From Calothrix sp. NIES-4101 (GTDB lineage: Bacteria; Cyanobacteriota; Cyanobacteriia; Cyanobacteriales; Nostocaceae), in NCBI GenBank assembly GCA_004296455.1, contig AP018280.1:930001-994000 (forward strand): 64,000 nucleotides of DNA. The letters run 5' to 3'. The stretch's first letter is position 1; every line of letters starts with the position of its first letter. A program made the position numbers and the translations under genes. The notes under the pieces were generated by a model. The model saw only the letters and a program-made list of their open reading frames with translations. It did no database searches and was not told the origin of the DNA. Positions 133-12,361 of the stretch are shown here, in pieces.

Positions 133-1657
133 TTAACAGCAACTTCTATCCGCAGGAATTTGGGGAAGTAAAGTAGGAGTTGGTTGATTGTGACGCTTAG
201 AACTAACAGCTTGAGTCATAAATTCCAAGACATTTCGACGTTGGGACTTTAGGGTAGTAACAACGGTCAACATTCTGGCAACGAAATTGCTGCCAGCCTT
301 TGTTTGAGAGCCAAAACTGGTACGTCGCCAGATCACGGCAGGACGTATTGCTCTTTCGGCAGCATTATTTGTCGGTTCCACACCCTCAACTTCGACAAAC
401 AGCCACAAAGCTTGCTCAACTTTTAAGAGTTGACGACAGGTACGAACAGTTTTTGCCAGTGGAGTTTTTTCCTGTGCCCCAATCTCATAATTTGCAGCTT
501 CTTGTAAAGAAGACTTGATTAAATCGCGAATCTCTGTAACTAAAAGTTGAAACTCGCAACGGCTCAAAGTTCCATCTCGAACCCGATGCCACAGTTCAAA
601 TAATTTTTCTTGTTGTTTAACCAGAGCATTGCCAATATTTGATGAAACTCCAGAACGCTCAGATATTTTGATAAATTCCCGTTTTAAATGTGCCCAACAT
701 AACTGCCGTTGCTCCAAGTCAACCCAGTTATACGATGCATATCGGTCGGAGTTTAAAATTCCACCGAAGTTCTCTCCCAGTAGATTTTTGGCTGTGTCCG
801 TACAACGGGAAAGTGTGACTTGAAAAAACGTAACTAGGGGTGTAACTGCAACCCAGAGCCAAGCTTTTCTGTTTTTGTCATTACATCCATCAACATTTCC
901 TTAGAAGACAGCTTGTTTCATCTACTCCAACTACAGGAGAATTTTGCACGTATGTTTTTGCTTCTGATACTGCTCCTGCAATTGCATCGCTTGCTTCTTT
1001 CTTCAGTTTATTGACTGTACCTAAGCACATCGTGACTCCAAAGATATCTTGCATTGCGCTTTGTACCATTCGAGTACTATGGCGGTATAACCCACTTAAT
1101 ACTGCTACAAGTGCCACTACCCTTACACCATAACCACGAATTGGCACATCTGCTGGTAAGGTTGCACGAGTCAAGGTTCCACAATGCTGACATTCGAGTT
1201 GATGTAGTCGATGTTCTACGATTATGGGATTTATCGGTGGAATTTCAACTACTTGATGCCTTCTGGGATTGCTATCAACTCCTATTAACTTTTCTCCACA
1301 ACCAGAGCAAGTTTCTGGCTGATGTTCTAAAACGCTATCGCATTCGGATACATCATACAGGTTACGACTATGCCCTTTATGTCCTAGCTGTCCACCTCGC
1401 TTTTTATCACTCTTCTTTTTTGATAGAAGTTTTTCGCTATTGAGTGGGTCGCTTGACGGTGGAGATGATGAGTTTTTTGATGTTCGATTGATTTTTTCTA
1501 ATAGTTCTTGATTTTTGGCAACTTCTGACGCTAACTCTTGTTCGGATTGCTTGATGCGCTGCCCCATTTTCTCCACCAGTTCTTTGATGCTGGCTGGAGT
1601 TTTTTCCCAATCTGAGCTTGGGATTTCAATCCCGTAAACGAGGCACATTACATCCAT
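133..1657 (-). pseudogene. IS66-family transposase, split by a frameshift
   Basis: This is a DDE transposase of the IS66 family broken into two frames. The N-terminal part (1657 to 890) has a coiled coil, a basic stretch, a CxxC...CxxC zinc-ribbon-like region and the first catalytic Asp in GVDETS. It then goes out of frame near 901-915 and stops at 890-892. The other frame is open from 900 down to 133 and carries the second Asp (NSDRYASY) and the Glu (NNAAERAIRP). Conceptual joining gives one ordinary full-length transposase, and one extra base near the junction explains the break. I could not identify terminal inverted repeats or a target duplication. It is probably inactive unless the shift is a sequencing error. 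Confidence 0.88.
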
Positions 1658-1977: not shown

Positions 1978-2604
1978 ATGAAGTTAAATGAGAGAAATTT
2001 AATGCTTTCTTCAGAAAACATGGATAATTTAACAACCCTAGCTCGATGGATGGCAGGGGAATTTAGTAATTACAAGCAATCTCAAGAAAACCCTCGTGAT
2101 TATGCCTACATACACATATTTTTTCGTCCCTTACCCTTTGAATTTTTCTCCGCTATTGGTTTCTATTCCGAACAGGTTTACGACTATGATTTGTGGAGTC
2201 CTTACCGCCAAGGAGTCCATTGTCTAGTTGATCGTGGCGATGATATTTATATTGAAAATTATAGCCTCAAAGATGCGATCATTTATGCCGGAGCCGCACG
2301 GGAATTGTCAATACTCCAAACGATTACCCCGGCTAGCGTGGAGCGACGTTATCATTGCTCCATGATTTTCAAACGCGATGGCGATCGCTTTTTGGGCAAT
2401 GTGGAACCGGGAAATCAGTGTTTAATCCACCGTCATGGTTGTCAAACTTACTTGGTAAGCGAAGTGGAGTTAACTGAAAATACTTGGAAAAGCATCGATC
2501 GAGGGATGGATGTTAATAGCCATCAGCAAGTTTGGGGTTCGGAACATGGCTGCTTACAATTTGAAAAGGCTCAAAATTTTGCCGACGAATTATTTCTGGA
2601 TTGA
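1978..2604 (+). CDS. cpeT: CpeT/CpcT-family phycobiliprotein bilin lyase
   Basis: A T-type bilin lyase, expected to attach phycoerythrobilin to a beta-subunit cysteine (Cys165 type in studied CpeT/CpcT proteins) in the cytoplasm. The 208 residues show family hallmarks: LARWMAGEFSN near the start, a FRPLPFEFF segment, EQVYDYDLWSPYR, IENYSLKD, and a conserved C-terminal region with DRGMDV and VWGSEHG. The length is close to the usual ~200. The start is uncertain: ATG at 2002 (residue 9) has a nearby GAGAGAA and fits the family start at least as well as 1978. It lies 146 bases upstream of cpeB on the same strand, which favours CpeT over CpcT. In Fremyella-type operons cpeT sits with the linkers and cpeR, so the position here suggests rearrangement. 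Confidence 0.85.
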   Translation: MKLNERNLMLSSENMDNLTTLARWMAGEFSNYKQSQENPRDYAYIHIFFRPLPFEFFSAIGFYSEQVYDYDLWSPYRQGVHCLVDRGDDIYIENYSLKDAIIYAGAARELSILQTITPASVERRYHCSMIFKRDGDRFLGNVEPGNQCLIHRHGCQTYLVSEVELTENTWKSIDRGMDVNSHQQVWGSEHGCLQFEKAQNFADELFLD

Positions 2605-2750: not shown

Positions 2751-3305
<555 letters not shown>

Positions 3306-3493: not shown

Positions 3494-3994
<501 letters not shown>

Positions 3995-4170: not shown

Positions 4171-5469
4171 ATGGATAAACGTTTTTTTCAAATTTTTAAT
4201 TTGACAGAAGCAGAAGCGATCGCTCTTTTAGATACCCCTCAAAACCAAATCAGCGCAGATGATTCTCGCTACATTGCAGCTTCCCACCTCATTAACTTTC
4301 CAACAGAGGACTCGATTGATGCCTTGATTAGAGCAGTACAAAATACAGAGGCTTCTCTGGATAACCGGATTGTGCGGCGAAAATCCGTCGAGACATTGGG
4401 TAGATTGAAAGCAAGCAAAGCTTTGCCAGTTATTTGCACCTGCCTCACAGATGAGGATTGTTACACCGTGGAAAATGCCGTCTGGGCAATTGGTGAAATT
4501 GGTACCAAAAATCCGGATATTTTGGAAAGTATTGCTCAGTTGTTAGAAAAGCCAAACCAAATTTATCGAGTCATAATCCATACTTTGGCAAAACTAGATT
4601 ACCAAGATGCGATTGAGCGTATAAATGGGTTTGTGGAATCAGAGGATAAACCAACAGCTAGTGCTGCGATCGCTGCTGTTTGTCGATTGACGGGAAATTA
4701 TACGGAAATGGAAAAGGTGGTGTCTTTATTGCAACACCATAATTGCACCACCCGTCGTGCTTGCATTCAAGACCTAATTGATGCCCATTACTACCCGGCT
4801 ATCCCTGAGATTGCTAGATGTCCAGTTTCTATCGTTTTTCGACTGCGAGCAATTAGGATGCTAGCGGACATTGGGGTTGAACGGGGAGAAGTAACTTTTG
4901 AGACAATTAGGCCAGTTTTGTCACAAACACTATGCGATCGCCCAGATGATCTAGATTTAGTTCACGAGTACGATCTACCCCCCAGCCTCGATTTTTTGAT
5001 TCGGGAATTGTACGAAACTGATTTCGGTCGCTGCTATCTGGCGAGTAAAACCCTGATGGAGAATTACCCAGAACAAGCACCTGCGGCTTTGCTGCAAACC
5101 TACGCAGAAGAAGCATATACAGATTATGGCGCTCACTATCACGTCATCAAATTACTGGGTTGGCTGCGATACACCCCTGCCTATGACCTATTAATAGAGG
5201 CATTACACAATCGAGAACCCCAGTTCCAGAAATCTCGTGCGGCTGCCGCGCTGGCGTTAGGTGAGCTAGGGGATCGACGAGCAATTCCAGATTTGCGGAT
5301 ATGTTTGGCAACTCCAATTTGGGATTTGAAGTATGCTGCCTTAATAGCGTTAGAAAAACTCGGTGATACTAGCGATCGCGATATCCTTACTCAAGACTCG
5401 GATTGGTTAATTCGTGCTGCTGCAAGTGCGATCAAATTGGGAAATTCAGTCACGCAAATCGCCTGTTAA
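4171..5469 (+). CDS. cpeY: CpeY, HEAT-repeat phycoerythrobilin lyase subunit
   Basis: Large subunit of an E/F-type bilin lyase; with CpeZ it attaches phycoerythrobilin to alpha-phycoerythrin in studied cyanobacteria. It is 432 residues long with repeated HEAT/PBS-lyase helices throughout, for example around residues 70-130 (SVETLGRLKASKALP, ENAVWAIGEIGT) and 350-420 (AAALALGELGDRRAIPDL). It begins MDKRFFQIFNLTEAEA, as CpeY proteins do. It lies downstream of cpeA past the hairpin and 19 bases before cpeZ, matching the cpeBAYZ arrangement. A PecE/CpcE role is much less likely given the length and the neighbours. Confidence 0.93.
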   Translation: MDKRFFQIFNLTEAEAIALLDTPQNQISADDSRYIAASHLINFPTEDSIDALIRAVQNTEASLDNRIVRRKSVETLGRLKASKALPVICTCLTDEDCYTVENAVWAIGEIGTKNPDILESIAQLLEKPNQIYRVIIHTLAKLDYQDAIERINGFVESEDKPTASAAIAAVCRLTGNYTEMEKVVSLLQHHNCTTRRACIQDLIDAHYYPAIPEIARCPVSIVFRLRAIRMLADIGVERGEVTFETIRPVLSQTLCDRPDDLDLVHEYDLPPSLDFLIRELYETDFGRCYLASKTLMENYPEQAPAALLQTYAEEAYTDYGAHYHVIKLLGWLRYTPAYDLLIEALHNREPQFQKSRAAAALALGELGDRRAIPDLRICLATPIWDLKYAALIALEKLGDTSDRDILTQDSDWLIRAAASAIKLGNSVTQIAC

Positions 5470-5488: not shown

Positions 5489-6106
5489 ATGATTATGGAC
5501 TCTTTTTTGGAACAATTAAAACATCCCAATCCCCACCTCAGAGAACGGGCAATGTGGGAAATCGCAGATACTCGCGATGCCAACACTATCCCTCGATTAA
5601 TGGATGTGCTGGGGGAAGAAGATGTTGTCTATCGACGGTCTGCTGTGAAAGCATTGGGGATTATTGGCATGGATGCTGTTTCTCTCTTGGTAGAATCATT
5701 ACTCAATAGCGATAATGTCACCATTCGTGGTAGTGCCGCAAAGGCATTAGCACAAATAGCCGTTCAACATCCCGACGTTCCTTTTGCCAGCGAAGGTTTA
5801 CAGGGTTTAAAGCAAGCCATGAACGATCCAAATCCGGTAGTTCATATTGCCTCTGTGATGGCACTGGGGGAAATTGGTTCTCCTGCCTTTGATATTTTGG
5901 TTGAAGCCCTAAAAACGACGGATAATGTAGCTCTACAAGTCACGATTGTAAATGCACTGGCATCCTTGGGAGATGGGCAAGGAGCCGAAATTTTGGCAAA
6001 TCTGGGGAATGATCTGTCTGTAGACTCCTATGTGCGGGAATCGGCAGTTAGTGCATTATCCAGACTGGATTTAGTTAGTCAATTTAACAAGAGAGAAGAA
6101 GAGTAA
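5489..6106 (+). CDS. cpeZ: CpeZ, HEAT-repeat lyase partner/chaperone
   Basis: Small partner of CpeY in phycoerythrin chromophorylation; it also acts chaperone-like toward other phycoerythrin lyases in studied strains. The 205 residues are almost entirely HEAT/PBS-lyase repeats (DANTIPRLMDVLGEED, AVKALGIIGMDAV, SAAKALAQIA, ASVMALGEIGS), the usual CpeZ length. Two candidate starts exist: ATG at 5489 and ATG at 5495 (MDSFLEQL); the second looks more like family starts. It forms an operon with cpeY. It ends in a convergent region facing cpeF. Confidence 0.92.
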   Translation: MIMDSFLEQLKHPNPHLRERAMWEIADTRDANTIPRLMDVLGEEDVVYRRSAVKALGIIGMDAVSLLVESLLNSDNVTIRGSAAKALAQIAVQHPDVPFASEGLQGLKQAMNDPNPVVHIASVMALGEIGSPAFDILVEALKTTDNVALQVTIVNALASLGDGQGAEILANLGNDLSVDSYVRESAVSALSRLDLVSQFNKREEE

Positions 6107-6252: not shown

Positions 6253-7122
6253 TTACTCCCAATCATCCGGCTCGTAGTGTTTCTCCAGTTGGGAAATTGC
6301 CAATTTGATAATGGTTTGTACGGCTAATTCTGTTTCTTGACTCAGGGCAAATTGCAGGGAAGCGATCGCAGTTGGTTCACCTATTTTCATCAATGCTAAA
6401 GCCGCAGCTTTCCGACTTTCGACATGATCGTGGGACAATAATTCCACCAAATTGGGAATAGCCGCTCGATAAGCCAAATTTCCCAATGCGGATGCGGCTT
6501 CACACCTGACATTTTCGGAATCATCGCCTAAGGCATTAATTATGAATGTGAATGCTCTTTCCTCTGGTTGCTCTTGGGCAACTTTGGCAATTGCTCCAAT
6601 GACAGCGCAGCGAACTTCTGGCGACTCGGAAGTGATTTCCTGGTACAGTTGCTCCTTCGCTTCCACACCAATAAACGCCAATGCCCATGCTGCATGACCT
6701 TTGGTACTTTCTGGATTCTCCGGTGATGCTAAAATTTCCAGCAACACTGGTACTGCGGCTTCTCCCATTCTGGCAAGCGCTCCCACGGATGAACCTTTAA
6801 CAACCGTATCTTCATCATTGAGTAAAGCCTGGATTAAAGCTGGAATAGAACTATGATCTGCAATCAGAGTTAAAGTTTTGGCAGCAGATCGTCGCACAAT
6901 CACGTTTTCGTGCTGGGCTAATGCTTCTATTAAAACCGGGGTGGCTGGTTTTCCTATTTCTCCCAAGGTTTGGGCACAACGCAACCTCACCATTCCTCGT
7001 GAATCTCCCAAACACTCGACCATTTGCTCTAACAGTTGTTCATCGTTGGCAGAAAATGTCTGTTGCGTAATCTGTTCCCCAACGCGATCGAGTAGTAAAT
7101 CAACTTCTTTTTGAGCTAGCAA
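6253..7122 (-). CDS. cpeF: CpeF (MpeV-like) HEAT-repeat lyase for the doubly linked bilin
   Basis: HEAT-repeat bilin lyase resembling CpeF, the enzyme that attaches the bilin bridging Cys48/Cys59 of beta-phycoerythrin in Fremyella. It is 289 residues of regular ~31-residue repeats (RCAQTLGEIGKPA, SAAKTLTLIADHSS, GHAAWALAFIG, EAASALGNLAYRA). The start is decided by the ribosome site: a GGAGGT at 7132-7137 sits nine bases before a TTG at 7122, with no in-frame ATG there. It follows the 84-residue gene by only 31 bases and lies downstream of ccaR on the same strand, so it may belong to a light-regulated unit. Another E/F-type lyase is possible, but the intact Cys48/59 pair supports CpeF. Confidence 0.8.
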   Translation of the reverse strand: MLAQKEVDLLLDRVGEQITQQTFSANDEQLLEQMVECLGDSRGMVRLRCAQTLGEIGKPATPVLIEALAQHENVIVRRSAAKTLTLIADHSSIPALIQALLNDEDTVVKGSSVGALARMGEAAVPVLLEILASPENPESTKGHAAWALAFIGVEAKEQLYQEITSESPEVRCAVIGAIAKVAQEQPEERAFTFIINALGDDSENVRCEAASALGNLAYRAAIPNLVELLSHDHVESRKAAALALMKIGEPTAIASLQFALSQETELAVQTIIKLAISQLEKHYEPDDWE

Positions 7123-7153: not shown

Positions 7154-7408
7154 CTAAGAATTTAAAGTTCCTTGTTGGTCTCGCAGCGTAGCGATTGTGG
7201 CATCGATTTTGGCAAGTTCTGGCTCTAGTTGTGCCATTACGGCTGACTTCATCAATTTAGCTTTTTTTGCTGTTTCCAAGGTCTCATTCAGCAGTCTTTC
7301 CCGATACTTTTCAAACTCTTCAATCAACTTCGCGATTTCTTGAACATTTGTTTCTTGCATTTCTGTTTCTTGTGTTTCTGGGGAAATAGCAAATTCTGAA
7401 TTATTCAT
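7154..7408 (-). CDS. Unknown 84-residue acidic coiled-coil protein
   Basis: I do not recognise a family. The protein has an acidic N-terminus (EFAISPETQETEMQE) and then a continuous amphipathic helix rich in Glu, Lys, Ala and Leu (about residues 24-80), predicted to form a coiled coil. It has no cysteine and no membrane segment. It is a real gene by its signals: AAGGAGA precedes the ATG at good spacing, and it sits 31 bases upstream of cpeF on the same strand, almost certainly in one transcript. Its place between ccaR and a bilin lyase suggests a role in phycoerythrin assembly or regulation, but nothing in the sequence proves that. Confidence 0.75.
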   Translation of the reverse strand: MNNSEFAISPETQETEMQETNVQEIAKLIEEFEKYRERLLNETLETAKKAKLMKSAVMAQLEPELAKIDATIATLRDQQGTLNS

Positions 7409-7564: not shown

Positions 7565-8245
7565 CTAGCCATATTCCTTATTCAGTCGATAGCCCATGCT
7601 GTGGACGGTTTCGATAAAGTTTTCGGGTGCCCCAACTGCTTTGAGCTTCTGACGCAAGCTTCTAATATGCACTTTGACCGTATCCTCTTCTGGTGGAGTT
7701 TCAATTGGCCAAATGTGCCCGATGATAGCGCGACGACTGAGAACACGCCGACCATTGCGTAGCAGTAACTCTAAAAGACTATATTCTTTTGGAGTTAAAT
7801 GCATTGGGTTACTGGCATAGATAACTTCGTAGGTGCTAGGGTCTAAATCTAAATTGCCCCATTTCAAAATTGGTGGCAAGGAAGAATGTCCTCGGCGTAA
7901 CAAAGCTCGAATCCGGGCAAATAACTCTCCCAGATCGACGGGCTTGACAATATAATCGTCTGCTCCAGCGTCTAACCCAGTAATTTTATCGGCAATTGTA
8001 TCACGGGCGGTGAGTATCAAGATAGGTATTTGATAGCCATGCGATCGCAATCTTTGACAGAGGTTAAATCCATCAACTTCCGGAAGCATTACATCCAGTA
8101 GCAGCAAGTCATACTCAAAAGCCTTGGTGTAATCCAAAGCCGATTCTCCATCGATGGCAATGTCAACTGTATAAAGCTGATCGGTAAGGGCTTCTGCTAA
8201 AGTCTCAGCCAAGCGAATATCATCTTCTATTAAAAGAATCCTCAT
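7565..8245 (-). CDS. ccaR: CcaR, green-light response regulator (OmpR type)
   Basis: DNA-binding response regulator of the CcaS/CcaR green/red system. The receiver domain (residues 1-115) has acidic EDD near the N-terminus, phospho-acceptor Asp51 (LLLLDVMLPE) and a Lys in VKPVD. A winged-helix OmpR domain follows (about 130-225: LTPKEYSLLELLLRNGRRVLS, EEDTVKVHIRSLRQKL). The sequence matches my recollection of Synechocystis CcaR along its length, including LAETLAEAL near residue 14 and the SPPEEDTVKVH-like segment. I chose the ATG at 8245 (MRILLIEDD); an upstream in-frame ATG at 8299 would add 18 residues not seen in the family. It is divergent from the cpeR operon. Confidence 0.9.
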   Translation of the reverse strand: MRILLIEDDIRLAETLAEALTDQLYTVDIAIDGESALDYTKAFEYDLLLLDVMLPEVDGFNLCQRLRSHGYQIPILILTARDTIADKITGLDAGADDYIVKPVDLGELFARIRALLRRGHSSLPPILKWGNLDLDPSTYEVIYASNPMHLTPKEYSLLELLLRNGRRVLSRRAIIGHIWPIETPPEEDTVKVHIRSLRQKLKAVGAPENFIETVHSMGYRLNKEYG

Positions 8246-8443
8246 AAAATTTACTTGAGATATGTGAAAAAAATCGCAACGATCAGGGGTTAAAAGCATG
8301 AATCGAGAGGCGATCTAGTCTGCCATATCCATACTTCCATTTTTGTGGTCTTTATTTAATATCTCTTTAAATATATGTCTTAATTATATTTAGTTTTACG
8401 AAGAAATATTTAGCTATGTAAAGTTTTTCTCCAAACCAAAATC

Positions 8444-8475
8444 TTTCCGATTTTTTTACCATTCTCTCACCGTTT
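8444..8475 (+). promoter_or_regulatory. Probable CcaR-binding box (three 11-base-spaced repeats)
   Basis: Three similar nonamers start exactly 11 bases apart: TTTCCGATT at 8445, TTTACCATT at 8456 and a weaker CTCACCGTT at 8467. OmpR-type regulators bind such head-to-tail repeats, and the CTTTCCGATTTTTTTAC core closely resembles the G-box I recall upstream of CcaR-controlled cpcG2/cpeC operons. It sits about 60 bases before the first linker remnant and points toward cpeR, so it should make that operon green-light responsive. Confidence 0.72.
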
Positions 8476-8531: not shown

Positions 8532-8654
8532 ATGGCGATTGGGCGTACATCCGAGCTTGGCGTAAGTTTGTTTGAAAATACCCCACTCTTGGAATTGGTA
8601 TTGAGCAACTCAAAAAAAGAGTTAGAAAGCATAATTTGTGCTGTGTGTCGTTAA
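8532..8654 (+). pseudogene. N-terminal stub of a phycobilisome rod linker
   Basis: A 40-codon open frame (MAIGRTSELGVSLFENTP ... ELESIICAVCR, stop at 8652-8654). The pattern GVSLF-TP, then ELES-I-AV-R, is the beginning of the rod-linker (Pfam PBS_linker_poly) domain in CpeC/CpeD-type proteins, where AVYRQVLGN would follow. Here the frame stops at that point and none of the three frames after it continues the domain. An AGGAGA ribosome site at 8520-8525 is retained. It is the first gene after the CcaR box. It could be a translated micro-peptide, but decay of a linker gene is simpler. Confidence 0.72.
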
Positions 8655-8836
8655 AAATGATTCATCTGTGAATTAGGAATCAAGTAAAAATTAATTGAGT
8701 TTAAGTATCTTGATTGACGCTAAATATCCTCAACTTTTCAACTGGATTTTTACAGAATTTCTTACTGCTTAGAAACGCTAATTAAATTTTCCATTTAATC
8801 AATTATTATAGCAAGTTATATCTGAGGAGAAATTCA

Positions 8837-9117
8837 ATGAGTGTCATTTTAGATGCGCCGGTAGAGCTTCGAGCCAATAGTAGCTCAGAGGAAATTAATA
8901 CTGTAATTCGTGATGTTTACAAACAAGTGCTGAGTAATCCTCACATTATGGAAAGCGAGCGATTGGTGACACAAGAATCGCAATTGTGTAATGGTGAAAT
9001 CAGTGTCAGAGATTTTGTTCGCCTGAATATTTTGTCTCTGGTGCAAAAATGACTACACAAATTCAACGCATCCACCGGTCTGGTGGAATCATTGTCAGTA
9101 TCAAAGAAGTCGTCTGA
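8837..9117 (+). pseudogene. Rod-linker gene with a large internal deletion
   Basis: The frame opening at 8837 (behind GAGGAGA) encodes a linker-domain start: [24 protein letters not shown], then [25 protein letters not shown], and ends at 9052. From about 9022 the -1 frame instead reads [20 protein letters not shown] followed by GGIIVSIKEVV to a stop at 9115-9117, which is the C-terminus of the CpcD domain that ends CpeC/CpeD/CpeE linkers. A gene of about 270-290 codons has therefore lost roughly 190, with an out-of-frame junction near 9020-9025. In my memory of Nostoc punctiforme, cpeC stands in this position before cpeR. Confidence 0.82.
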
Positions 9118-9197
9118 AGATAAGAAGTTTTGCTATTCCTCTTCATTGAAACTGCCCTATCTCCCGAGTTTAATCTCCTAATTCTGCTGATTTTAAT

Positions 9198-9222
9198 AGA
9201 GCGAGTATTAAAAACTCGCTCT
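9198..9222 (+). terminator. Hairpin between linker remnants and cpeR
   Basis: A perfect 9-bp stem, AGAGCGAGT (9198-9206) against ACTCGCTCT (9214-9222), with a 7-base loop, followed by GTTTCTCG. It lies 36 bases before cpeR. It may attenuate read-through into cpeR or stabilise the processed cpeR message. The U-run is short, so termination should be partial. Confidence 0.55.
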
Positions 9223-9258
9223 GTTTCTCGAGCTTTTCTGAAGATGAGGAAATGAAGT

Positions 9259-9564
9259 ATGTTGCCCCCATCGGCTCGTAAAAAAATGCAAACTTGGATT
9301 AGAAGCCGCCATTTAATTTGTGATGGTCAGTTTCTAATTTTTGAAAGCTTAGAATATCCAGCTATTGAAAGATTTGAACAATGTATTACTAGTTTGGGAG
9401 GGAGTTTAATTTCTGTGGAACTATGCAAGCGAGTTTGGATGGGGAATCACCGACAAGTAATACTCTACCAAGCAAAAGCAAGTTTATATACACCTAACCA
9501 TGATATCAAACAATATTGGTTCAAGTACGGTGGTTGCTATACAAGATTTGACGAACGTCCCTGA
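9259..9564 (+). CDS. cpeR: CpeR, activator of phycoerythrin genes
   Basis: CpeR is needed for expression of cpeBA in Fremyella and Nostoc. This 101-residue protein has the family start MLPPSARKKMQTWIRS, HLICDGQFLIFESLEYPAIERFEQ and RQVILYQAKASLYTP, and looks complete. A GAGGAAATGAAGT stretch precedes the ATG. It is the last gene downstream of the CcaR-type box, after two destroyed linker genes, so it is the one clear target of the light switch still intact. CpeR resembles PP2C-type phosphatase fragments but lacks a full catalytic set, and its mechanism is unsettled. Product identity is firm from sequence and context. Confidence 0.9.
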   Translation: MLPPSARKKMQTWIRSRHLICDGQFLIFESLEYPAIERFEQCITSLGGSLISVELCKRVWMGNHRQVILYQAKASLYTPNHDIKQYWFKYGGCYTRFDERP

Positions 9565-9721
9565 CAGATTTAAATTTTTGAGCTTTTTCGCGAAGTCATA
9601 AGAAGAACAAGTGTCCATCTGCTAATATTTTTGGATCGGGCAATTTGGTAACTGGATTATGTTGGGCAATATTGCTGTTACCGTCATCAAATTGGGTATT
9701 AATCCAGATAGAGATGATTTT

Positions 9722-12361
9722 ATGAGTCAGCTTGGTATTTATTTATCGTTGGGGACTGTTGTTTTTCTAACTATTTGCTACCTATTTAAATGGCAAGTCG
9801 CTCAACGCTATCAAGCGGAAGTTGTTCTCAGCCAACAAACCAAACGGGAGCGGGTGGTTAATCAAATAGCCCAACATATCCGTCAATCTTTGAACCTAGA
9901 AAAAGTTTTGGTAACGACGGTATCAGAAGTTAGAGAATTTCTTGATTGCGATCGCGTACTAATTTATCGTATTTGGGAGGATGGTACTGGCAGTGCGATT
10001 ACAGAAAAAGTTTTAGAGCGGTATCCAAGTATTTTGGGAGAAACATTTTCCGAGGAAGTTTTTCCGGGAGAGTACCATCAAGCTTACATTTGGGGAAAAG
10101 TCCGTGCCATTACCAATATTGATCAAGCCGATGTCGAATCTTGTCTGGCAGAATTTGTCAAACAGTTTCAGGTTAAGGCAAAACTTGTAGTCCCGATTAT
10201 CCAAGAAATTAGAAACCAGGAGGAAGGGAGCAGGGAAATATCTAATTCATCTTCCGAAGCTACCCCATCTCCTTATCTATGGGGATTGTTAATTGCCCAT
10301 CAATGCAGTCAACCCCGACAGTGGCAAGCTTTAGAAATTGATTTAGTCAAGCAGCTGGCAACCCAAGTAGCGATCGCTATTCAGCAATCTGAGCTTTATG
10401 AGCAACTACAACAACTTAATGCCCAACTCGAATACCGAGTTCAGCAACGTACCGAAGAACTCGCTTTAACTAACGATTCCTTGAGAGCGGAAATTGTCGA
10501 ACGTCAACGCACCGAAGCTGCTTTACGACACACAAATCAAACTTTGCAATCTTTGATTGCTGCCTCTCCCCGTGCTATTTTTACTCTCAACCTTCAAAAT
10601 CGAATCGAGATTTGGAACCCCGCAGCAGAACGCATGTTTGGCTGGACAGCAACAGAGATTTTAGAACATCTAAATCCTGCAATCTTCCTGGGAAGTATGG
10701 AGGGATACGAAAAAATCGAGCAGAGTGTTTTACAAGGAATAACTCCTCCCAGCTTGGAGGTGCGATGGCAAAAAAAGGATGGTTCTCCCATCGATATTGT
10801 TTTCTCTTCTGCACCTCTAACAGATCGGGATGGTAAGATTAATGGGCTGGTAGCGGTTGTTGCTGATATTACCGAGCAAAAGCGTCAAGCCGAACAAGTA
10901 CGCTTGCTCCAATCTGTTGTTGTTAATACCAATGATGCAATTATAATTACTGAGGCAAATCCCATCGATGAGCCAGAAGCCTGTATTCTCTACGTGAACC
11001 AGGCATTTACCCGACTCACTGGTTACACCCTCGAAGAAGTTTTAGGTAAAACACCCCGCATTCTTCAAGGTGCGAAAACTTGCCCCACGGAGTTAGAAAA
11101 AGTCCGCTCTGCCCTATCTCGACGGGAATCTATTATTGTCGAAGTTATTAACTACCGCAAAGATGGTTCCGAATTTTGGTCGGAATTTAGCGTAGTTCCG
11201 GTAGCTGATAAAAATGGTCGATATACCCATTGGATTTCGGTACAGCGAGATATTACGGAACGCAAACATACAGAAGAAGCATTGCGTCGCAGCGAAGAAC
11301 GTTTTCGCTCCCTGATCGAAAATGCCCTAGATATTATTACTATTTTGGGTGCTGATGGCATTATCTATTATGGAAGTCCTTCGGTTGAAAAAGTTTTGGG
11401 TTACAATACCACGGAATTAATCGGTAGAAACTTTTTTGAATACATTCACCCTGAAGATTTAGCCAACTGCCGTAATATTACTAATGTGATTCAAATCCCA
11501 GAATTGACACGTCCAATTGAATTTCGATGCCGACATAAGGATGGTTCTTGGTGCAGTTTGGAAGCGATCGGTCAAAAATTTGTTGACGACGCAGCTGAAT
11601 CTAGAATTGTGATCAATTCTCGCGATATAACCGAACGAAAACGTTTAGATGAAGTGCGATTAGCATTAGAAAAAGAAAAAGAATTGAGTGTCCTGAAAAT
11701 CCGTTTTTTCTCAATGGCATCCCATGAATTTCGTACACCACTTAGTACCGTTTTAGCAGCAGCCCAACTATTAGAAAATTCTCCTCTGGAAAATGCTGAA
11801 AAAAGGTTGAGAAATCTGCGTCGGATTCAAGAATCAGTTAAAAATATGGTGCAGCTTTTAGATGATATATTAACTATTAATCGCGCCGAAACAGGAAAAT
11901 TAGAATTCAATCCCAAACCTCTTGACCTGGAACAATTTTGCCGACAATTTGTCGAAGAAATGCAGTTGAGTGCAGGAAATCAACACACACTCACATTTGT
12001 CTGCCAGGGAGAATCGATCGATGCTTATTTAGATGAAAAGCTATTACGATCTATCCTCGCAAATTTTCTCTCTAATGCCATCAAATATTCTCCTAAAGGT
12101 GGTCAAATACATTGCTCTTTAAAATTCGAGCGAGATTATGCCAGTCTCCAAATTCGCGATCGCGGTATTGGTATTTCTCCGGAAGACCAAAAGCAACTTT
12201 TTGAACCTTTTTATCGTGGCAAAAATGTCCGCCATATTTCTGGAACTGGATTGGGATTAGTTGTTGTCAAAAAATGCGTAGATTTACATGGAGGCAAAAT
12301 TGAAATTACCAGTAATCTCGGTCAAGGAACAACTGCAACTATCACCCTCCCGTTGACATAA
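9722..12361 (+). CDS. ccaS: CcaS, green/red cyanobacteriochrome histidine kinase
   Basis: Membrane-anchored light sensor that phosphorylates CcaR. Counting from the upstream ATG at 9659: transmembrane helix ~26-44, GAF ~65-245, three PAS domains (~295-420, 420-545, 550-665), HisKA with SMASHEFRTPLST, and HATPase to residue 900. The GAF contains Cys162 in SCLAEFVKQFQVK, matching the Cys-Leu chromophore site I recall in Synechocystis CcaS, plus DRVLIYRIWEDGTGSAITE and GEYHQAY. I chose ATG 9722 (MSQLGIYLS), which puts the membrane helix first as in known CcaS; 9659 would add 21 residues. A third PAS domain is present compared with the two I recall for Synechocystis. Confidence 0.9.
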   Translation: MSQLGIYLSLGTVVFLTICYLFKWQVAQRYQAEVVLSQQTKRERVVNQIAQHIRQSLNLEKVLVTTVSEVREFLDCDRVLIYRIWEDGTGSAITEKVLERYPSILGETFSEEVFPGEYHQAYIWGKVRAITNIDQADVESCLAEFVKQFQVKAKLVVPIIQEIRNQEEGSREISNSSSEATPSPYLWGLLIAHQCSQPRQWQALEIDLVKQLATQVAIAIQQSELYEQLQQLNAQLEYRVQQRTEELALTNDSLRAEIVERQRTEAALRHTNQTLQSLIAASPRAIFTLNLQNRIEIWNPAAERMFGWTATEILEHLNPAIFLGSMEGYEKIEQSVLQGITPPSLEVRWQKKDGSPIDIVFSSAPLTDRDGKINGLVAVVADITEQKRQAEQVRLLQSVVVNTNDAIIITEANPIDEPEACILYVNQAFTRLTGYTLEEVLGKTPRILQGAKTCPTELEKVRSALSRRESIIVEVINYRKDGSEFWSEFSVVPVADKNGRYTHWISVQRDITERKHTEEALRRSEERFRSLIENALDIITILGADGIIYYGSPSVEKVLGYNTTELIGRNFFEYIHPEDLANCRNITNVIQIPELTRPIEFRCRHKDGSWCSLEAIGQKFVDDAAESRIVINSRDITERKRLDEVRLALEKEKELSVLKIRFFSMASHEFRTPLSTVLAAAQLLENSPLENAEKRLRNLRRIQESVKNMVQLLDDILTINRAETGKLEFNPKPLDLEQFCRQFVEEMQLSAGNQHTLTFVCQGESIDAYLDEKLLRSILANFLSNAIKYSPKGGQIHCSLKFERDYASLQIRDRGIGISPEDQKQLFEPFYRGKNVRHISGTGLGLVVVKKCVDLHGGKIEITSNLGQGTTATITLPLT

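Follow-up and report, generated by a model that had tools for sequence, protein, structure and literature searches.

Previous studies described operons controlled by the sensor kinase CcaS and the response regulator CcaR, in which CcaS phosphorylates CcaR in green light and CcaR induces an operon that carries either a phycoerythrin (PE) linker together with CpeR or the linker CpcL (PMC4417701, PMC4424290, and PMC12461855). PMC4417701 further proposes that the copy number of PE rod linkers sets PE content. The CcaS-CcaR pair has also found wide use as an optogenetic part. Here we compare these systems with a locus of Calothrix sp. NIES-4101, located in a window of 64,000 nucleotides (the whole stretch of DNA that was analysed). 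With the type II chromatic acclimation operon of Geminocystis NIES-3708/NIES-3709 (cpeC-cpeR or cpeE-cpeR; PMC4417701, PMC4424290), the locus shares the sensor pair, a box-driven operon, and an operon-encoded CpeR; however, both of its linker genes are truncated, leaving CpeR as the only product that it could deliver. The regulatory logic is likewise that of the Nostoc punctiforme CcaR operon, which holds PE genes and cpcL (PMC12461855), but the operon in the window has neither CpcL nor an intact PE linker. By published descriptions, a CcaR operon induces CpeR together with a PE linker or CpcL. Loci that have lost the linkers but kept the box and CpeR separate the two outputs and let one ask whether green-light induction of a linker is needed at all, and what linker serves PE assembly where CpeC is missing.

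The CcaR locus and its two linker stubs

The ccaR-type gene, encoding an OmpR-class response regulator (PF00072 and PF00486), lies on the minus strand at 7568..8242 in query coordinates (open reading frame 7565-8299, likely ATG near 8245). From 8243 onward the plus strand carries, in this order, a CcaR box, linker stub 1, linker stub 2 with a CpcD tail, cpeR, and a histidine kinase gene. The regulator is 89-90% identical to those of genomes G104, G107, and G108; it is named from its class, the box, and synteny, because an NCBIfam equivalog search returned none at its cut-off for this protein. The predicted CcaR-binding G-box (8443..8464, plus strand) is located 68 nt upstream of stub 1, is conserved in alignment A1, and is identical at 19 of 22 bases to the published G-box CTTTCCGATTTCTTTACGATTT (PMC8256508). 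The exact 17-mer core of the box has a single site in the whole 7.59 Mb genome; allowing one or two mismatches adds 13 sites, compared with 7 for the reversed control. Twelve of the 13 have two mismatches; the one with a single mismatch, at 5,470,291, falls within another gene and was taken as chance.

Downstream of the stubs, cpeR is intact (9259..9564, plus strand, 101 codons) and has its own GAGG site; it is 86-91% identical to its counterparts in three syntenic loci, L121-L123. The ccaS-type sensor kinase gene (9659..12361, plus strand, 900 codons) is also intact, and its product, with GAF, three PAS, HisKA, and HATPase domains, is 80%, 79%, and 69% (partial) identical to the kinases of L121, L122, and L123, respectively. 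The upstream G-box, the adjacent OmpR-class regulator and GAF/PAS kinase, and the operon-encoded CpeR are those of a CA2-type CcaS-CcaR operon; however, such an operon encodes a PE rod linker, and both linkers in the window are truncated.

The three syntenic loci share the gene order of this one, and in each of them both linkers are intact. L122 belongs to Calothrix sp. C42_A2020_038 and L123 to Calothrix sp. PCC 7716; L121 is a contig of a metagenome-assembled genome labelled Gracilibacteria, with clearly cyanobacterial gene content and a full PE/ccaR-ccaS operon, and its bin label (Candidatus Gracilibacteria) is probably a case of mis-binning. The intact linkers have 289 and 255 codons (256 in L123 with an upstream TTG), and each contains both PF00427 and CpcD (tested on the L121 copies). 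Stub 1 (8532..8654, plus strand) retains codons 1-40 of a CpeC-type rod-linker gene, followed by a stop, with 249 codons missing; alignment A1 likewise places the cut in linker A after codon 40. It aligns with 65% identity to the start of the intact 289-aa linker of L123 (residues 1-40), and alone it gave no match in a Pfam search. The roughly 180 bases after stub 1 have no significant alignment to the linker-A/intergenic stretches of the relatives (the best local alignments of 8655-8836 were equalled by 22, 104, and 15 of 200 shuffles).

Stub 2 (8837..9052, plus strand, 71 codons) consists of the first 62 codons of a second rod-linker gene plus nine frameshifted codons and a stop. It aligns with 76% identity to the intact second linker over residues 1-62 of the latter, and the other frame does so with 64% identity over residues 220-255. 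Its PF00427 match (E=1e-14) covers only profile positions 2-48 of 126, an incomplete domain. The deletion junction falls at 9022/9023, where 487 nt (162 codons and one nucleotide) are missing, the same against each of the three orthologs. Beyond it, the out-of-frame CpcD tail can be read as a 22-codon open reading frame (9049..9117, plus strand), with an ATG that overlaps the stop of stub 2 (ATGA); the tail matches PF01383 at 9025-9105 with 28.1 bits, barely above the 27-bit cut-off. GGAG stands upstream of both stubs. The source genes are CpeC/CpcC-type rod linkers (PF00427 plus CpcD), but whereas the intact orthologs have both domains, the stubs keep at most a third of one domain and a frameshifted tail. 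An earlier sequence-only reading had described a 40-codon linker N terminus and a second linker without its middle between a CcaR-type box and an intact cpeR, with an out-of-frame junction near 9020-9025 and good ribosome sites on both stubs, and had suggested comparing the locus in close relatives. All of this is borne out by the comparison except the length of the missing middle, put too high at about 190 codons. The homology with linker and CpcD domains that it assumed is found in stub 2 and the tail; stub 1 aligns to the intact linker without a Pfam match of its own.

Between stub 2 and cpeR is a GC-rich hairpin (9192..9234, plus strand) with a predicted RNA fold of -16.9 kcal/mol. It has no T-run, stops about 36 nt short of cpeR, and received no call in terminator prediction. 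Equivalent hairpins occur at 9682-9722 in L121, 9802-9843 in L122, and 9810-9851 in L123 (-13.6 to -13.9 kcal/mol). They may be attenuators or processing sites that set the linker-to-CpeR ratio.

An unlinked 337-aa linker

We give a probability of roughly three in four to the reading that this is a CA2-type PE operon under CcaS-CcaR control in which both rod linkers were destroyed by internal deletions, so that the switch delivers CpeR only, and that a 337-aa linker encoded elsewhere in the genome now serves PE. As known biology would have it, green light would lead CcaS to phosphorylate CcaR, which would activate the box. CpeR activates PE genes, and as the sole product deliverable by the operon it would then do so here. 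The 337-aa linker would be the one now used for PE, and its presence would have made the operon linkers dispensable in this strain. The proposal of PMC4417701 that fewer PE linkers go with less PE would predict short PE rods here: with the 337-aa linker, the rods would probably be shorter, or PE less abundant.

A search of the genome with PF00427 gave 11 matches. Four are ApcE domains, two are of CpcC type, and three are of CpcG/CpcL type; the remaining two are the 337-aa linker and the stub. The 337-aa linker gene is intact and located at 5.62 Mb, unlinked to the operon. Its product contains PF00427 but no CpcD domain (none of the seven PF01383 matches in the genome falls there). The C-terminal half is helical and ends in a conserved motif, GEAxLNKWRxRxF, common to 16 aligned orthologs; the AlphaFold model is poor (mean pLDDT 53.2). 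The gene has a dN/dS of 0.15 relative to that of same-genus genome G002. In a tree of 38 linkers, the protein belongs to none of the CpeC-type, second-linker, and CpcC-type clades and lies near its relatives from G002, Scytonematopsis, and G009. PF00427/NCBIfam naming gave CpcG matches only, all below cut-off; the nearest solved chains by sequence are the multi-domain linkers CpcN, Glr2806, and Glr1262, with no close single-domain PE linker among them. No CcaR box was found at the gene, the best site scoring 13/22 (shuffles: mean 12.8, maximum 16). A literature search, outside whose coverage most subscription journals lie, found nothing relevant on pseudogenised PE linkers or on any named linker like the 337-aa one, and we do not claim that either is unpublished.

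We then took a census of 217 genomes of the family, with thresholds set here (337-aa orthologs, E<=1e-75; cpeA, E<=1e-65; CpeC-type, E<=1e-80). By these E-values, orthologs of the 337-aa linker were found in 47 genomes, cpeA in 92, and CpeC-type genes in 77. All 47 genomes with the 337-aa type are cpeA-positive (hypergeometric P=3e-22, a value inflated by relatedness among the genomes), and in relatives the gene often lies beside cpeR or cpeY. By the same thresholds, the 92 cpeA-positive genomes divide into 39 with both linker types, 37 with the CpeC type only, 8 with the 337-aa type only (this strain, G009, G123, G162, G172, G183, G185, and G187), and 8 with neither (G141, which is 72% complete, G151, G152, G161, G163, G175, G212, and G224). 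In G009, one of the genomes whose CcaR locus is also eroded, there are eight PF00427 matches, and the only PE-type one is of the 337-aa class.

These data bear on whether the PE discs might instead be held by CpcC-type phycocyanin linkers, the 337-aa linker doing something else. The two CpcC-type linkers in the genome and the cpeA-positive genomes with neither PE linker type are in keeping with such an arrangement, but the tracking of PE by the 337-aa linker in 47/47 genomes and its frequent position next to cpeR or cpeY make it unlikely; it is because of the co-occurrence with cpeA that we favour the 337-aa linker over a phycocyanin linker for PE assembly. It is not a general substitute, since 8 of the 92 cpeA-positive genomes, the eroded G151 and G152 included, show neither type. 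Tentatively, the 337-aa proteins could represent a class of PE linker that has drawn little notice, built from PF00427 and two long helices at the C terminus with no CpcD, and able to organise PE without CpeC-type linkers. Wherever a genome has this or some other linker, the operon under green-light control might repeatedly shed its own linkers and become a regulator-only switch, chromatic acclimation in these strains then setting the amount of PE through CpeR and not through inducible rod linkers.

Phycoerythrin genes and the history of their cluster

At lower coordinates than the regulator, the plus strand carries a CpeT/CpcT-family gene (1978..2604; PF06206, E=1.6e-66), intact cpeB (2751..3305, PE beta subunit; NF058508 over cut-off), intact cpeA (3500..3994, PE alpha subunit; NF058506 over cut-off), cpeY (4171-5469; NF058505 over cut-off), and a HEAT-repeat partner of cpeY (5489-6106) that scores below every curated cut-off and that, by position, we take to be cpeZ. 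Two conserved neighbours follow on the minus strand: a gene for a HEAT-repeat lyase-like protein (6253-7122) and one for an 84-aa protein (7154-7408), which repeatedly adjoins the lyase-like gene in the PE loci of relatives. Between pebAB and the PE genes, an IS66-type transposase is split over two separate frames (window 133-1657). CpeA, CpeB, CpeY, PebA, and PebB all score over curated NCBIfam cut-offs, and the genome encodes three bilin reductases. Computed against L238, L240, and L121, dN/dS is 0.06-0.12 for cpeB, 0.07-0.10 for cpeA, 0.05-0.06 for the ccaR-type gene, 0.04-0.09 for cpeR, and 0.09-0.13 for the ccaS-type gene; the PE, lyase, and regulator genes are under purifying selection. 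A second cpeR copy is located at 1,404,293-1,404,592 (L033 4288-4836), in a 182-aa frame with a long repetitive in-frame N-terminal stretch; its neighbours encode a CpeT-like protein, a protein that combines a CpcD domain with a charged tail, a linker resembling CpcL, and an allophycocyanin-like subunit.

The sequence-only reading had proposed that the strain lost its PE rod linkers while keeping regulator, pigment, and lyases. For this operon the proposal stands: the curated matches and low dN/dS values speak for retention, and the genome search that it had called for found no other CpeC-type gene (E<=1e-80). Strain-wide it is too strong, because an intact PE-associated linker without CpcD sits elsewhere. 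That the entire PE system is being lost, with the linkers merely the first genes to go, is quite improbable. The transposase pieces between pebAB and the PE genes and the lack of a cpeA match in same-genus genome G001 point that way, but the frames of cpeA, cpeB, cpeR, ccaR, ccaS, pebA, pebB, and the lyase genes are intact, with dN/dS of 0.04-0.16 where tested.

The PE cluster and the rest of the genome likely have a mixed history, judging by sequence similarity. Relative to G104, G107, and G108, the window has 91-93% identity in cpeA and 89-90% in CcaR, versus 76% and 74% relative to same-genus G002, whereas cpcA, cpcC, and the 337-aa linker are closer to G002 than to the other three. Horizontal replacement of the PE cluster was rejected as a firm claim, as the similarities do not show which lineage exchanged the cluster. 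In G002 and G108, the clusters L236 and L237 combine a second ApcE-like protein with several allophycocyanin-like subunits and with D1-like proteins of photosystem II, a make-up resembling that of far-red acclimation clusters.

Linker erosion at other CcaR loci

We examined 32 CcaR-type loci, which are not a random sample; 20 regions were chosen partly for erosion already seen. Among the 30 best regulator matches (L091-L120), 7 loci are eroded. cpeR lies beyond the regulator in 23 of the 32 loci, or 22 after leaving out L127, which has cpeR and both linkers but a regulator that is only 54% identical and on a long branch. Of these 22 loci, 10 retain an intact PE linker and 4 have CpcL but no PE linker; the other 8 are eroded, namely the one in the window and those of G009, G140, G151, G152, G155, G162, and G172. 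Like the locus in the window, the other seven keep box and cpeR (8/8 in all) with linkers truncated or gone, but their remnants differ in length. G151 and G152 keep a 109-codon linker piece and G162 keeps 28 codons; in G140 and G155 a stop follows after five codons; G172 has a relic without a start codon (read by eye); and G009 has no linker remnant, only the box being recognisable. Box scores are 19/22 for the window, 21/22 for the other seven eroded loci, and 19-21 for the ten intact loci. On the regulator tree, the eroded label needs five changes (bootstrap 4-5), of which well-supported branches force just one. The eroded loci are probably separate events. G140 and G155 have CpeC-type genes elsewhere in the genome.

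The retained pieces have themselves diverged. Where the three orthologs agree, window-specific replacements affect 9/40 codons of stub 1, 8/61 of stub 2, and 3/101 of cpeR, while L121 differs from the other two orthologs at 4, 4, and 5 such codons. Tyr39, present in 50/50 compared sequences (paralogs included), is Cys in the window. With synonymous sites near saturation, dN/dS is 0.16-0.21 for stub 1 compared with 0.07-0.11 among intact copies, and 0.08-0.18 for the stub-2 region, overlapping the 0.08-0.14 of intact pairs. Because of these replacements and the series of end states in other genomes, we call the stubs remnants; they look like decay products, ordinary in kind for pseudogenes.

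The same evidence speaks to the other suggestion of the sequence-only reading, that the stubs are translated and useful, either as leader peptides tuning cpeR or as micro-linkers (the 71-residue N-terminal piece and the 22-residue CpcD tail). The kept GGAG sites, the ATGA overlap, which would permit re-initiation, the persisting 65-76% identity to orthologs, and a stub-2 dN/dS that is not clearly raised are what such a role would predict. However, stub 2 keeps just 48 of 126 PF00427 positions, the remnants of seven other genomes (109, 28, 5, or 0 codons) have no common length, and the unusual replacements, Tyr39 to Cys among them, are more frequent than in cpeR, so the suggestion finds no support and is very improbable. 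Least credible is an assembly or sequencing error that collapsed two real linker genes: it would have to account for two separate deletions in one operon, one of them frameshifted, and for additional substitutions, of a sort that no collapse would produce, in what remains of the two genes, within a 7.24-Mb contig of a 6-contig assembly and with comparable end states in other genomes.

Erosion can reach cpeR too: the CcaR locus of G234 (L299) retains a mere cpeR fragment (residues 65-94, 57%), which lies before cpcL.
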